Source: an uncultured Acidimicrobiales bacterium
GTDB lineage: Bacteria > Actinomycetota > Acidimicrobiia > Acidimicrobiales > Aldehydirespiratoraceae
DNA: 64,000 nucleotides
NCBI GenBank assembly: GCA_958296055.1
Contig: CATQHS010000001.1
Coordinates: 1,190,277-1,254,276 of the forward strand
Direction: 5' to 3'
Part shown: one piece after another, positions 56,469-62,926 of the stretch
Layout of the letters: every line of letters begins with the position of its first letter
Numbering within the stretch: the stretch's first letter is position 1
The notes under the pieces: model-generated
The model's input: the letters and a program-made list of their open reading frames with translations, nothing else
Told to the model about the DNA's origin: nothing
Databases searched by the model: none
Translations under genes and position numbers: made by a program

Positions 56469-56978
56469 TCAGGCCAGCAGGCTGCGCAGCATCCAGGCCG
56501 TCTTCTCGTGGACCAGCATGCGCTGGGTCAGCAGATCGGCGGTGGCCTCGTCGTTGGCCGCCTCCACCATCGGGAACACCGACCGGGCGGTGCGCACCAC
56601 CGTCTCCTGGCCGGCGACGAGGCGCCGGATCATCTCGTCAGCGCCGGGGGCGTCGCCCTCCTCGGGCACCGACGACAGCTCGGCGAACTGGCGGTAGCTG
56701 CCCGGGGCCGGCTCGCCCAGGGCCCGGATCCTCTCGGCGATCTGGTCCACGGCCACGGCCAGCTCGGTGTACTGCTCCTCAAACATGAGGTGCAGCGTGT
56801 TGAACATGGGGCCGACCACGTTCCAGTGGTAGTTGTGGGTCTTCAGGTAGAGGGTGTAGCTGTCGGCCAGGAGCCGGGACAGGCCCCCGGCGATGGCGGC
56901 CCGGTCGGCCTCGTCGATGCCGATGTCGATGGCCGGGGCCCGGCCGATTCGGCCCGCGGCTCGGTCAGCCCTGCCCAC
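56469..56978 (-). CDS. dps: Dps-family ferritin-like DNA-protection protein
   Basis: A 169-residue Dps from GTG 56978. [42 protein letters not shown] contains the His-His-Trp, Asp/Glu ferroxidase motif found at the dimer interface of Dps dodecamers. It stores iron and shields DNA from peroxide. Its start overlaps ilvC by 14 bases, an unexpected partner, and jetC follows 54 bases on, so Wadjet could be read through from the ilv-dps transcript. Confidence 0.93.
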
Positions 56979-58020
56979 CTGAGGCCTCCTTCACCGACGC
57001 CTTGCCCGCGGAGATCCACGGCATCATGGACCGCAGCACCCCGCCCACCTTCTCGATGGCGTGGTCGTGGCCGGCCGCCTCCAGCCGGTGGAAGTTCTCC
57101 CGGCCGCTGCGGCTCTCGGCCACCCATTCGGCCGCGAACGAGCCGTTTTGGACCTCGGCGAGGATCCGGCCCATCTCGGCCCGCACCGCGTCGTTCACGA
57201 TGCGCGGCCCCCGGGTGAGGTCGCCGTACTCGGCCGTGTCCGACACCGAGTAGCGCATCCCGGCGATGCCCTCCTCGTACATCAGATCGACGATGAGCTT
57301 GAGTTCGTGCAGGCACTCGAAGTAGGCCACCTCGGGCTGGTACCCGGCGTCCACCAGCGTCTCGAAGGCGGCCTGGACCAAGGCGGTGGTGCCGCCGCAC
57401 AGCACGGCCTGCTCGCCGAACAGGTCGGTCTCGGTCTCCTCGGTGAAGGTGGTCTCGATGACCCCGGCCCGGGCCCCGCCGATGGCATCGGCGTAGGCCA
57501 GCGCCAGGGCCAGGGCCGACCCGGAGGCGTCCTGCTCCACCGCCACCAGGCAAGGCACGCCGCCCCCCTCCTCGTAGGTCCGGCGCACCAGGTGGCCCGG
57601 ACCCTTGGGGGCCACCATGCACACGTCCACGAAGTCGGGCGGGGAGATGAGGTCGAACCGGATGTTGAACCCGTGGGCGAAGAACACGGCGTCGCCGGGG
57701 GCCAGGTTGGGCTCGACGTGCTCGGAGTAGACGGCGGCCATCTCGGTGTCGGGCATGAGCATCATGATCACATCGGCGGCGGCCACGGCCCCGGCGATGG
57801 AATCGACGGCCAGCCCCGACGCCTCGGCCTTGGCCTTCGAGCCCGAGCCGTCGCGCAGGCCGACCCGCACGTCCACGCCGGAGTCGGAGAGGTTCAGAGC
57901 GTGGGCGTGGCCCTGCGAGCCGTAGCCCAGGACCGCCACCCGGCGGTCGTCGATGACCGACCGGTCCACGTCGCTCTCGTAGTAGATGGTGGCCTTGATG
58001 ATGTCGTCGGTGTCTGCCAC
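56965..58020 (-). CDS. ilvC: Ketol-acid reductoisomerase
   Basis: A 351-residue class I KARI from GTG 58020 ([15 protein letters not shown]). NADPH-binding [19 protein letters not shown]; metal and substrate residues in [14 protein letters not shown] and [30 protein letters not shown] and IQNGSFA-like [11 protein letters not shown] are conserved. It makes dihydroxy-isovalerate or dihydroxy-methylvalerate in valine and isoleucine synthesis. It follows ilvN by 35 bases in an ilvBNC operon. Confidence 0.97.
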
Positions 58021-58055: not shown

Positions 58056-58676
58056 TCAGGGGGACGCTTCGGGCCCCTCGGGTTCCGGCGCCGGTGCCGG
58101 GGCCGGGGCCGATCGGGCGCCGAGCATCCGCAGGGCCACCCGCCCGGTCCGCTGCAGCTCGATGATCCCGTAGGGTTGCAGGCGTCGGGCGAACTCGTCC
58201 AGCCGGGCCGGGCGGGCCGACAGCGACAGCATCATCGCATCGGCGTCGGCGTCGAGCACGTAGGCCCGGAACTCGTCGGCCAGCCCCAGCAGCCCGCCCA
58301 GGCCAGACGGCGAGACGGCCACGGTCACCAGTATCAGCTCCCGCTCGATCGACTCGGCCGGGTCGAGTTCTTGGATGTCGACCACGTTGACCAGCTTGTC
58401 GAGCTGCTTGACCACCTGCTCCAGCGAGGACGACTCCACGTCGACGGTGAAGGTGATGCGGCTGAAGCGGTGGTCCTCGGTGGCGGCCACGGCCAGCGAC
58501 TCGATGTTGTAGCCCCGCCGGGCGAACAGGCCAGCCACCCGGGCCAGGACCCCGGGCTTGTTCTCGACCGTGGTGACGATGGTGGAGAACCGCGCCGGGG
58601 GCACCGCCGCCGGGGCCGGTGGGGCCTTTGGGGCGTCCAGTGCCTCCGAAGCCTCCGGGGCTGCGGCGACGCTCAT
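58056..58676 (-). CDS. ilvN: Acetolactate synthase small (regulatory) subunit
   Basis: A 206-residue subunit from ATG 58676 (a GTG at 58679 is equally possible). It begins with an Ala/Pro-rich extension, then an ACT domain: [39 protein letters not shown], which binds valine for feedback inhibition. The second half is the IlvN C-terminal domain that activates IlvB. The ilvB stop overlaps its start (TGATG), giving coupling. Confidence 0.95.
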
Positions 58677-60427
58677 CACCGGCCCCGTCGGGGGTCGGGC
58701 TGGGAGGGGTCGACGACGATCTCGGAGTTGGTCTTGCCGGCCGGCACCATCGGGTAGACGTTCTCGGAGGCCTCGCTGCGGAACTCAAGCACCACGGGCC
58801 GGTCGTCGATCTCGTTGGCCTTGGAGATGGCCGGGGCCACCTCCTCAGGGGCCTCCACCCGCAGGGCCACGCAGCCCATGGCCTCGGCCCATCTCACGTA
58901 GTCGGGGACCTCGTAAGAGAGGTAGACCTCGCTGTAGCGCTCCTCGTAGAACATCTCCTGCCACTGGCGCACCATGCCCAGGTAGGCGTTGTTGAACAGG
59001 GCGACCTTGACCGGGATGCGCTCCACGGTGGCGGTGACCAGCTCCTGGGCCGTCATCTGGAAGCAGCCGTCGCCGTCGACGGCCCACACCATGCGGTCGG
59101 GCATGCCCACCTTGGCCCCGATGGCGGCCGGGATGGAGAAGCCCATGGTGCCCAGCCCCCCGGAGTTGACCCAGGTGTAGGGGTGGTCGAAAGTCCAGTA
59201 CTGGCTGGCCCACATCTGGTGCTGACCCACCCCGGAGGCGACGATGGTGTCGTCGGGGGTGAGGTCGCGGAGCTGCTCCATCACGAACTGGGGCTTGAGC
59301 AGCTCGCCCGGCTCGGACTGCTCGTACACCAGCGGGTACTTCTCCTGCCAGCCACTGATCACCGACCGCCAGGCCCGGCGGTCGGGCTGGGCGCCGCCGC
59401 CGCCGAGGGCCCGCAGGGCGGCGGTGAGCTCGGCGATCACCAGTCGGCAGTCGCCCCGGATAGCCACGTCCGCCGCCCTCACCTTGCCCAGCTCGGCCGC
59501 GTCGATGTCGACGTGGATCACCTTGGCACCGGGGGCGAAGCCGTCGACCCGGCCGGTCACCCGGTCGTCGAACCGGGCCCCCAGGGCGATCAGCAGGTCG
59601 GATTCCTGCATGGCCGTGACCGCCGCGTAGTTGCCGTGCATGCCGGGCATGCCCAAACACAGCGGGTGGCTGTCGGGGAAGGCGCCCCGGGCCATGAGGG
59701 TGGTGACCACCGGGATATCCGCCAGCTCGGCCAGCTCTTTGAGCGCGTCGGCGGCCCGGGCTTTGAGGATCCCGCCGCCCGCGTAGAGCACGGGGCGCTC
59801 CGACTCAGCGATTAGGCCGGCCGCGGCCCGGATCGCCCCGGGGTCGCCGGCGGTGACCGGCCGGTATCCGGGCAGCTCCATGTCATCGTCGGAGGGCTCA
59901 TACCAGGTCATGGCCGACCGGGGGTTGTTGGGGTCGACTATGTCTTTGGGGATGTCCACAAGCACCGGGCCGGGCCGGCCGGTGGTGGCGATGTGGAAGG
60001 CCTCGTGGATGACCCGGGGTATGTCTTGGGCCTCGGTCACCAGGAAGTTGTGCTTGGTGACGGCCATGGTGATACCGGTGGTGTCGCACTCCTGGAAGGC
60101 GTCGGTGCCGATGGCCGGGTAGGGCACCTGGCCCGACACGCACACCATGGGCACGGAGTCCATGTTGGCGTCGCACAGGGCGGTCACGATGTTGGTGACT
60201 CCCGGCCCCGAGGTGACCATGGCCACCCCGGGCCGGCCGGTGGCGTGGGCGTACCCCTCGGCCATGTGCCCGGCCCCCTGCTCGTGGCGGACCAGGATGT
60301 GGCGTATGGGCGACTCGATGATCGGGTCGTACACGGGCAGGATGGCCCCGCCGGGCAGCCCGAACACCACCTCGGCGCCTTCGTGCTCAAGGGCCTTGAC
60401 CAGCGCCTGGCCTCCGGTCATCTGCAT
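58676..60427 (-). CDS. ilvB: Acetolactate synthase large (catalytic) subunit
   Basis: A 583-residue ThDP/FAD enzyme. ATG 60427 was chosen because GGAGAAG lies just upstream; TTG 60451 would add eight residues. [21 protein letters not shown] contains the ThDP-activating Glu, and [16 protein letters not shown] with [13 protein letters not shown] is the ThDP-Mg motif. It condenses pyruvate with pyruvate or 2-ketobutyrate, the first common step to valine, leucine and isoleucine. The operon's leader region upstream appears to attenuate transcription. Confidence 0.97.
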
Positions 60428-60458
60428 GAGTTTCTTCTCCGGGCTCGACAACGCGAAA

Positions 60459-60479
60459 CGACCTCCCGGCGGGAGGTCG
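60459..60479 (-). terminator. Attenuator hairpin upstream of ilvB
   Basis: On the minus strand CGACCTCCC-GCC-GGGAGGTCG forms a perfect 9-bp stem with a 3-base loop, followed by TTTCGCGTT. Just before it is another stem, AGCGCACG paired with CGTGCGCT, that could pair in an alternative way. It lies between the leader peptide stop and the ilvB start, the correct place for an attenuator. Confidence 0.65.
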
Positions 60480-60511
60480 AGCGCACGATCGGTTGTGAAC
60501 GCGAACGTGCG

Positions 60512-60553
60512 CTAGCCGACTACTACCGGTACTAGCGCGGCGCCGAGTTCCAC
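60512..60553 (-). CDS. Leader peptide of the ilvBNC attenuator
   Basis: GTG 60553 to TAG 60512-60514 encodes MELGAALVPVVVG, 13 residues with four Val and two Leu. The three adjacent Val codons (with one more two residues earlier) would stall ribosomes when charged Val-tRNA is scarce, so the downstream hairpin is bypassed. Leader peptides rich in branched-chain residues control ilv operons in Corynebacterium and enterics. The GTG lies seven bases after the -10 box, so the leader message is probably leaderless. Confidence 0.7.
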   Translation of the reverse strand: MELGAALVPVVVG

Positions 60554-60559
60554 GGCGAA

Positions 60560-60588
60560 AGTATGGCGGCTCAATCCGGCCCTGGCAA
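60560..60588 (-). promoter_or_regulatory. Promoter of the ilvBNC operon
   Basis: On the minus strand TTGCCA (60583-60588) is separated by exactly 17 bases from CATACT (60560-60565). The predicted start of transcription falls on the GTG of the leader peptide at 60553. This is the best-formed sigma-A-type promoter I see in the window. Confidence 0.7.
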
Positions 60589-60631
60589 CGTTTGGCCTCT
60601 CACGGGCCGGCAGGGCGGGGCGTTCCGGGGC

Positions 60632-62926
60632 TCACGGGCCGACGGCGGGGTCGATGACGGCCATGAGCCAGGGCGCCACCTCGTCGTATCCCCGGTCGGA
60701 GAGGTGGACGCCGTCGCCGCGCAGAGCCCGGTCGCGCCCGCTCCCGACCTCGCCGATGAAGGCCGGATAGTCGACCAGCACGATGTCGCGGTCGGGCCGC
60801 GCGGCCGCCGCCTCGGCCACCAAGCGGTTCAGGCCGGCGATCCGGTCGGCGTGATCCTCGGCCATGTCGGCGCGGTCGAGCCGCGGGGTCTCCAGCCAAT
60901 AGAGGACGGCGCCGGTGCTGGTGAGCAGATCGCTGGCCGCCTCGTACTCGCGGCGGACGTACTCGTCGTAGGCCGGGTCGCCTATCGAGGACCACTCGTC
61001 GGCCACGCCGGGCACGATCCGGTCGATGGCGTCCCACGGCGACACGTGGGCCACCACCGCGTCGGGCCGGAACAGGTCCAGGGCGGTGGGCCACGACACC
61101 ACCTCGCTGCGGACCACGTCGGTGGTGCTCACCGGCACGGCCCAATTGCTGCACACCTCCCCCACCGGCCCGGACTGTTGCCCCGGCTCTCGCTTGAGGC
61201 CGAACCGGACCACCCCGCAGCCGATGTGGCTCTCGTTGTAGGTGATGATCCGGCCCGGGTTCTCGGCCCCCCAGTCGTGCAGCGCCCACCCGATCTGGGC
61301 CGACACCGAATCGCCCACGATCAACACTCGCAACGGCCCCCGATCCCCGGCCGGGACGGAGGCTGATTCGGCGGTCGGCTGGTCGGGATCGGGACCAGCC
61401 GGGGCGGGGACCGGCTCGGGAGCGGACGAGTCGGCAGCGCTCGGCTCGGGGCTGGGCGACTCGGGGCTGGGCGGCTCGGGGCTGGGCGAATCGGCGGGGA
61501 CCGGCTCGGCGGCGGGTGAACCGGCGGCGCTCGGCTCGGGAGCAGGCGAGTCGGCGGCGCTCGGCTCGGCGGCGGCCAAGGGGACGAACACCTGCTCGAT
61601 GCGGGACGGCCGGGTGGCGTTGGCGGCCAGCAGCCCGGCCAGGACGACGATCACCGCCGCCGAAGCCGCCAGGGCGCCGCCGGCCGGCGTCAGCGGCCGG
61701 GGCACGATCGGCCACCGTCGCTCCACGATCGGCCGCTCGATCAAGTGGTAGCTGACCGCGGCCGTCGCGAAGGCGAGCACCAGGTGAACGGCCAAAAGCT
61801 GGTAGCCCGACGGCCGATACCCGTCGCCCGTCAGAGCGCCGATCCGCTCGGGAGTGACCAGCAGGTATATCGGCCAGTGGTACAGGTAGAGGCCGTAGGA
61901 GATGCGGCCCGTGTAGCGGACCGGGGCCAGCTCGAAGAAGCGGTGCAGAGGGCTCGGCCCCAGCCGCCTCAGCCCGGCCCGCCGGCCCGGCCCCGGCTCC
62001 GCCGGCCCCGGGGGCCGGTCGGCCTCGCCAACCGCCCCCGCCGGTTGGGCCATGCCGTAGATCAGGACCGCGCTGGCGACGGCCACCAGCAGGAATCCGC
62101 CCCGCTCGAACATCCACTCGTCCCGCTCGGAGACCCTGGCGATCATCCACAGGTGCAGGGCCAGGGCCGGGTAGGCCGCGGCCACCAGCGCCCGGCGGCC
62201 CCGATCGGTGCGGGGCGGTCCGTACATGCGGGCGGCCAGGGCCAGGGCGATGCCGACGAACAGGGCCTGGGCCCGGGTGTCGGTGCCGAAGTAGACCCGG
62301 GACGGGTCTTGGCCGGGGATGTGCAGGAACGCCATCCACGCCGCCGACGCCACCGCCGCGGCCAGCGCCGTCCCCAGCAGCACCCGGCGGCCCCGGCGGC
62401 CGAACCAGGCGAGGCCGGCGATGACGAACAGCGGCGCGAACACGTAGAACTGCTCCTCTATGGCGAAGGACCACACGTGCTCGAGCGGCGAGGGGCTGTC
62501 GAACCGCTCGAAGTACGAGGCCCCGACCGCGATCTCGTGCCAGTTGGCGCTGTAGGTGAGGGCCGAGACGATGGCCCCGGTCCAGCGGGGCGCGATCCGG
62601 GGGTCGCCCACCCACACCAGATACAGCGCCAGCAGGACGACGGCGGCCAGCAGGGCCGGGAGGAGCCGGCGGGCCCGGCGGCCGGCGTAGGCGACCAAGT
62701 CGATCCGGCCGGTGGCGTCCCACTCCCGCAGGGCGATGGAGACGATCAGGAAGCTGGACAGCACGAAGAACAGGTCGAGCGACAGGATGCCGCCGGGGAG
62801 GATCTCGGGCCCGCCCCGGACCCGCTCGGGCCGGGCGTGGTAGAGCAGCGGCCCCAGCACCACGAACACGCCCCTGATCCCGTCGAGGGCGCCGATGTAG
62901 GCGAAGCGGCGGCTGGGCCCCGTCAT
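60632..62926 (-). CDS. OafA-type membrane acyltransferase fused to an SGNH domain
   Basis: A 764-residue protein. Residues 1-400 form the acyltransferase-3 membrane part of about ten helices (FAYIGALDGIRGVFVVLG, LVAYAGRRARRLLPALL, LEHVWSFAIEEQFYVFAPLF, ISYGLYLYHWPIYLLV). A disordered linker at about 445-515 is rich in EP/SP repeats. The C-terminal SGNH domain has VLIVGDSVSAQIGWAL (catalytic Ser) and GDGVHLSDRGYDEVAPWL (Asp, His). Such fusions acetylate cell-wall or surface glycans, with SGNH completing transfer outside the membrane. It is downstream of nothing on its own strand and stands upstream of the ilv leader, pointing toward it. Confidence 0.92.
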   Translation of the reverse strand: MTGPSRRFAYIGALDGIRGVFVVLGPLLYHARPERVRGGPEILPGGILSLDLFFVLSSFLIVSIALREWDATGRIDLVAYAGRRARRLLPALLAAVVLLALYLVWVGDPRIAPRWTGAIVSALTYSANWHEIAVGASYFERFDSPSPLEHVWSFAIEEQFYVFAPLFVIAGLAWFGRRGRRVLLGTALAAAVASAAWMAFLHIPGQDPSRVYFGTDTRAQALFVGIALALAARMYGPPRTDRGRRALVAAAYPALALHLWMIARVSERDEWMFERGGFLLVAVASAVLIYGMAQPAGAVGEADRPPGPAEPGPGRRAGLRRLGPSPLHRFFELAPVRYTGRISYGLYLYHWPIYLLVTPERIGALTGDGYRPSGYQLLAVHLVLAFATAAVSYHLIERPIVERRWPIVPRPLTPAGGALAASAAVIVVLAGLLAANATRPSRIEQVFVPLAAAEPSAADSPAPEPSAAGSPAAEPVPADSPSPEPPSPESPSPEPSAADSSAPEPVPAPAGPDPDQPTAESASVPAGDRGPLRVLIVGDSVSAQIGWALHDWGAENPGRIITYNESHIGCGVVRFGLKREPGQQSGPVGEVCSNWAVPVSTTDVVRSEVVSWPTALDLFRPDAVVAHVSPWDAIDRIVPGVADEWSSIGDPAYDEYVRREYEAASDLLTSTGAVLYWLETPRLDRADMAEDHADRIAGLNRLVAEAAAARPDRDIVLVDYPAFIGEVGSGRDRALRGDGVHLSDRGYDEVAPWLMAVIDPAVGP

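Follow-up and report, generated by a model that had tools for sequence, protein, structure and literature searches.

The stretch of DNA analysed here (64,000 nucleotides, hereafter the window) carries on its minus strand the three genes ilvB, ilvN and ilvC, preceded by a promoter, a short reading frame and two hairpins. In the order of transcription, the features are:

60583..60588 (-): -35 element TTGCCA, read from the sequence; TTG(C/T)C(A/G)-like in most relatives
60560..60565 (-): -10 element CATACT, 17 nt from the -35 element and 6 nt ahead of the GTG
60512..60553 (-): leader peptide gene encoding VELGAALVPVVVG followed by a stop; GTG start at 60553-60551, TAG at 60514-60512, predicted +1 at the start codon
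60480..60513 (-): hairpin P1, putative antiterminator or switch; 5' arm AGCGCACG at 60513-60506, 3' arm CGTGCGCT at 60487-60480
60459..60479 (-): hairpin P2, putative terminator; CGACCTCCC-GCC-GGGAGGTCG, 9 bp
60447..60458 (-): weak U-tract TTTCGCGTTGTC, directly after P2
60434..60440 (-): Shine-Dalgarno-like GGAGAAG of ilvB, read from the sequence
58676..60427 (-): ilvB, acetolactate synthase large subunit, ATG at 60427 (NCBIfam NF005860/TIGR00118)
58056..58679 (-): ilvN, acetolactate synthase small subunit (NCBIfam NF008864)
56965..57984 (-): ilvC, ketol-acid reductoisomerase (NCBIfam NF004017)

The leader reads GTG GAA CTC GGC GCC GCG CTA GTA CCG GTA GTA GTC GGC and then TAG, the candidate sensor codons being CTA GTA CCG GTA GTA GTC. 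The 5' arm of P1 opens inside the stop codon of this leader and its 3' arm is flush with P2. The longest reading frame of ilvB begins at an in-frame TTG at 60451. On the same strand, positions 60632-62926 encode an acyltransferase-like protein of 764 amino acids whose gene ends about 45 nt upstream of the -35 element of ilvBNC; its match to the SucT acetyltransferase model is weak (72 bits for a cut-off of 1275).

The promoter TTGCCA-N17-CATACT and the GTG leader had been proposed by an earlier reading of the sequence alone, and their coordinates and sequences proved correct. The promoter is the single promoter-like match found in 60400-60700, where 0.1 was expected from shuffled sequences. 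In the 64-kb window, 11 short reading frames start with an ATG or GTG located 6-8 nt after a -10-like box, and among them the ilvB leader alone is rich in I, L and V and is followed by a 9-pair hairpin. The promoter-plus-start pattern occurs a single time in the 3.3-Mb genome.

The conservation of these elements was examined with IlvB relatives taken from whole-genome sets, the named records being nearly all Acidimicrobiia, Acidimicrobiales or actinobacterial MAGs and most of the genomes compared being metagenome assemblies. The full composite, consisting of promoter, leader, P1 region and P2, was present in 87 of 97 distinct ilvB upstream regions. Three further regions (L085, L087 and L101) match a covariance model covering the leader end, P1 and P2, bringing the total in Acidimicrobiia to 90 of 97. 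Among the seven exceptions, ilvD lies directly upstream of ilvB in five and gatB in one, the remaining one being L008. In the five ilvD-ilvB loci (L043, L049, L057, L059 and L065) the stretch between the two genes carries no leader element or a degenerate one, and no model match was detected within the flank upstream of ilvD. In the window's own genome, the covariance model found one full-length site (E 5e-23) and two other matches, of which one is the palindromic terminator read on the opposite strand and the other a chance match at E 10. Run blind on 396 genomes of the phylum, the same model gave 36 matches, other classes included, and 27 of the 30 that were fetched lie directly upstream of ilvB. 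The ilvB upstream regions of two other classes display the same order of elements and, in nearly all their leaders, a GTA codon 5-11 nt before the 5' arm of P1, GTA having been required in that search; in these regions P1 is mostly separated by 0-2 nt from a terminator whose U-tract is good. In L142 and L141, which belong to another class of the phylum, a reading frame of about 91-98 codons containing YVGSAEWTAPGAVRLEL follows directly a leader ending in NLVLIS and carrying GTA; in L142 this frame precedes ilvB.

In nearly all leaders of the 97-region survey the -10 box lies 6, 7 or 8 nt from the ATG or GTG that follows. Of the 80 leaders whose promoter match is strong, 72 have the box 6-9 nt before an ATG or GTG, which is the spacing that a leaderless transcript requires; transcription is therefore predicted, from this spacing, to start at the initiation codon. 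Among the promoter-anchored relatives the -10 box takes the forms CATACT, CATAAT, CAGACT and GATACT. A -10 score of at least 9 was obtained for 82% of the leader starts vs 0.35% of 2266 other ATG/GTG codons, the leader starts of the 97-region survey having been picked partly by this very score. For that reason, the reading frame was tested separately with independent anchors, the stop being given by the covariance-model match and the start being the ATG or GTG 5-9 nt after the best promoter. Start and stop shared one frame in all 63 testable cases, where one third is expected by chance, with leaders of 10-19 codons; among these, the loci that the model alone had brought in, with no selection on a reading frame, gave 10 of 10. 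In the survey itself the leaders have 10-18 codons, apart from one of 39 codons that is probably the result of a wrong start choice. About seven leaders of one group (L047 and L066 for example) begin approximately 11 nt after CATACT and are, in view of this distance, probably not strictly leaderless.

The codon content of the leaders was then compared with that of the genes which they precede. Valine and leucine account for 23% and 16% of leader residues and are clustered 2-6 codons before the stop. GTA represents 168 of the 242 Val codons of the leaders (69%) vs 69 of 4645 (1.5%) in the corresponding ilvB genes, an odds ratio of 150, and in the window it is used for none of the 180 Val codons of four genes vs three times in the 13-codon leader. 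Conservation of the Val codons was one of the points on which the sequence-only reading had staked its attenuator, and this conservation was found: at least one GTA Val codon is present in 86 of 87 leaders and at least two in 66, their place being constant, 3-5 codons ahead of the stop. Three tRNA-Val genes were found in the genome, with the anticodons TAC, CAC and GAC, tRNA-Val(UAC) being encoded by one gene. By the standard decoding rules GTA is read by one isoacceptor, tRNA-Val(UAC). The excess of GTA in the leaders over ilvB thus suggests that the sensor is probably this single tRNA, and the valine/leucine attenuator first proposed keeps its valine sensing but is amended to a device responding mainly to valine, via a rare codon. 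GTA also occurs in the ilvB leaders of other classes, and it has been named as a control codon in Corynebacterium glutamicum (PMC11857589) and, as GTA/GUA, in the leader of Mycobacterium tuberculosis (PMC13236596).

Both hairpins are conserved as structures. P1 scored 10.9 vs 4.3 ± 0.4 in shuffled sequences. Because P1 is misaligned in many sequences of the MAFFT alignment (A1), covariation was counted on a model-fitted alignment of 88 sequences (A4), in which compensatory changes affect 13 of 17 base pairs, including all seven pairs of P1; none of 500 shuffles reached this value. In the same alignment 96% of the cells pair, again unmatched by 500 shuffles; as A4 leans towards the structure, one side was slid by 1-3 columns to guard against such bias, and pairing fell to 38-46%. 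Most commonly, P1 starts with the last base of the stop codon. The gap between P1 and P2 is 0-4 nt in most sequences and 0-6 nt in nearly all, and the two hairpins share no pairs. The 9-bp hairpin announced before ilvB was present as P2 at 60479-60459. Its CCTCC...GGAGG core is nearly invariant in about 90 leaders (A1 and A4) although the outer pairs covary, and its arms resemble anti-Shine-Dalgarno and Shine-Dalgarno sequences.

How P1 could act on P2 was considered by folding and by pairing searches. At equilibrium, the computed probability of P2 was near 1 in each of three situations (ribosome on the Val codons, ribosome on the stop codon, no ribosome), and no thermodynamic switch was seen; in the 'starved' state the 5' arm of P2 was, if anything, less occupied before its partner was made. 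In the window, P1 could be extended into the 5' arm of P2 by pairing GTCG with CGAC, which resembles the trinucleotide overlap proposed for C. glutamicum (PMC11857589). As a class-wide antiterminator this extension was rejected, the pairing not being enriched over shuffles. For pairings between the P1 loop and the 3' arm or tail of P2, the score was 11.6 vs 10.3 ± 0.2 in mononucleotide shuffles; with related sequences and C-rich loops, this is a lead only.

Taken together, these sequence data indicate that ilvBNC is very probably controlled by ribosome-mediated transcription attenuation with a leaderless leader peptide. Transcription would begin at the GTG or within a base of it, and a ribosome would load on the bare 5' end and read the 13-codon leader. 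When charged Val-tRNA(UAC) is scarce, the ribosome would wait at the GTA codons 8, 10 and 11, located 3-6 codons before the stop. Counted from the first base of the P site, the usual ribosome footprint reaches some 15 nt downstream; on this basis, the leading edge of a ribosome waiting on GTA should lie just short of P1, which would form and let the operon be read through. With plentiful charged Val-tRNA, the ribosome would advance to the stop codon and mask the 5' arm of P1; with P1 blocked, P2 would form and transcription would end before ilvB. If P1 counteracts P2 in this way, the response would have the sign expected of a biosynthetic attenuator. The attenuator reading made from the sequence alone is consequently upheld by the conserved frame, hairpins and Val codons but lacked P1, the hairpin that would do the switching.

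Three other explanations of the element were weighed against this attenuation model. The acyltransferase-like gene, which lies on the minus strand too, has its end about 150 nt ahead of P2, and P2 could be its terminator with a short reading frame lying incidentally beside it. However, promoter, frame, codons and hairpins are kept as a unit with ilvB in the 90 regions, and the search made blind to ilvB also lands upstream of this gene; chance origin is refuted by this conservation and its probability is negligible. A metabolite or ppGpp riboswitch might be expected from the ppGpp riboswitches known upstream of ilvB in some bacteria (PMC10272879), but the element is made of two simple hairpins and a conserved frame with codon-specific conservation. 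With Rfam 15, no family was above threshold in the window and none was plausible in the leader region even at E 10; the identity with a ppGpp riboswitch was ruled out on this lack of an Rfam match, and we consider riboswitch control as a whole extremely improbable. Translational attenuation, in which P2 would hide the ribosome-binding site of ilvB, could account for the near invariance of GGAGG in the 3' arm of P2, GGGAGGTC, which is Shine-Dalgarno-like. Nevertheless, between 23 and 137 nt (median 74) separate P2 from the start of ilvB, a spread far beyond what a Shine-Dalgarno site would allow. In the window, ilvB also possesses a GGAG of its own, 9 nt upstream of ATG 60427, and most relatives have a T run after P2. 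Sequestration of the Shine-Dalgarno sequence by P2 was ruled out on these distances, and the translational explanation is regarded as very improbable.

The remaining alternative keeps the regulatory role of leader and hairpins and concerns the way in which transcription would end in the window's clade, where termination could depend on Rho, or where P2 could be only a pause or stability element behind a decayed U-tract. The 'T-rich start' attributed to the sequence after the hairpin was a generous description: the tail has 4 T in its first 8 bases and, the criterion of the terminator scan being 5 T of 8, no call was made. In all 12 sequences of the clade the tail TTTCGCGT contains at most three T in a row, the second T run being lost, and many relatives have a P1 loop poor in G and rich in C. 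The tail is moreover complementary to the 3' arm of P1 over 7-8 bp in 11 close relatives, which are too closely related to count as independent, vs 5 bp in the window and 3-5 bp in most others. This complementarity might reflect an alternative helix enclosing P2, or drift. Against Rho or pausing, a run of at least four T lies within 14 nt after P2 in 70 of the 75 other leaders, and P2 is kept at 8-9 pairs in the clade itself; we hold this alternative to be rather unlikely. Intrinsic termination in the window's clade is nonetheless the weakest step of the attenuation model because most of the U-tract has been lost, and the hairpin first read as a terminator, although present, is followed there by a poor one. 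In the closest relatives (L035, L002-L007 and L031-L039) the U-tract is replaced by GCGTGCGG or GCGTACGG.

Returning to ribosome-mediated attenuation, a more specific version for the whole phylum is possible but is put forward with reserve. In it, tRNA-Val(UAC) alone would in effect serve as the sensor, through a codon that ordinary genes hardly use, and P1, flush with the terminator and sharing no pairs with it, would act by geometry or kinetics and not through rival pairings; in the window's clade the U-tract would have been replaced by a segment able to pair with the 3' arm of P1.

This kind of control is already known in Streptomyces, Corynebacterium and Mycobacterium, and what is new is its extension to Acidimicrobiia; in the literature searched, no mention was found of names in Acidimicrobi- together with leader peptide and attenuation. 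It would mean that a valine-sensing leader peptide, missed by gene callers, is spread across a large and mostly uncultured class. In PMC1262725, ilvB leaders with runs of I, V and L codons and terminators were predicted in 2005 for Corynebacterium, Mycobacterium and Streptomyces; Acidimicrobiia are not among the named genera, and in the part consulted neither P1 nor a preference for GTA is described. In Corynebacterium, the ilvBNC and ilvB-II leaders are alike in having an I/L/V-rich frame starting at or next to the transcript start, P1, and P2 with a U run (PMC10272879, PMC11857589), ilvB-II being compared by its described layout, but P1 overlaps most of the reading frame there whereas it begins at the stop codon in the window. 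Attenuation of C. glutamicum ilvBNC has been tested (PMC11857589), and a trinucleotide overlap between antiterminator and terminator was proposed in that work, whereas no class-wide overlap was found in Acidimicrobiia. The ilvB1NC attenuator of M. tuberculosis, likened by its layout, also has a leader frame with LVVI codons including GUA and a predicted antiterminator and terminator; it was tested with reporters, in which changing LVVI to AAAA abolishes the response (PMC13236596), whereas that of the window is known from sequence.

A leader of the same size is the ilvL of Streptomyces, which in S. lividans (SLIV_10947, MRTRILVLGKRVG) is a 13-residue leader, reported as leaderless, before ilvBHC with hairpins and a U-rich tract (PMC8079986). 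Like the window's leader, Streptomyces ilvL has 13 residues, is reported as leaderless and has hairpins upstream of an ilv operon, with GTA 7 nt before P1 and P1 flush with the terminator (L165 and L169). In these and other Actinomycetes, the frame passes through the 5' arm of P1 and stops about 10 nt further on, whereas the frame of the Acidimicrobiia has its stop codon right at the edge of P1 and often contains two or three GTA codons. For the S. coelicolor ilvB leader, changing candidate regulatory codons was reportedly without effect (cited in PMC1262725), which would count against attenuation by leader codons. The present comparison touches on this open question: the S. coelicolor codon changes reportedly had no effect, yet GTA and its distance to P1 are conserved across several classes.
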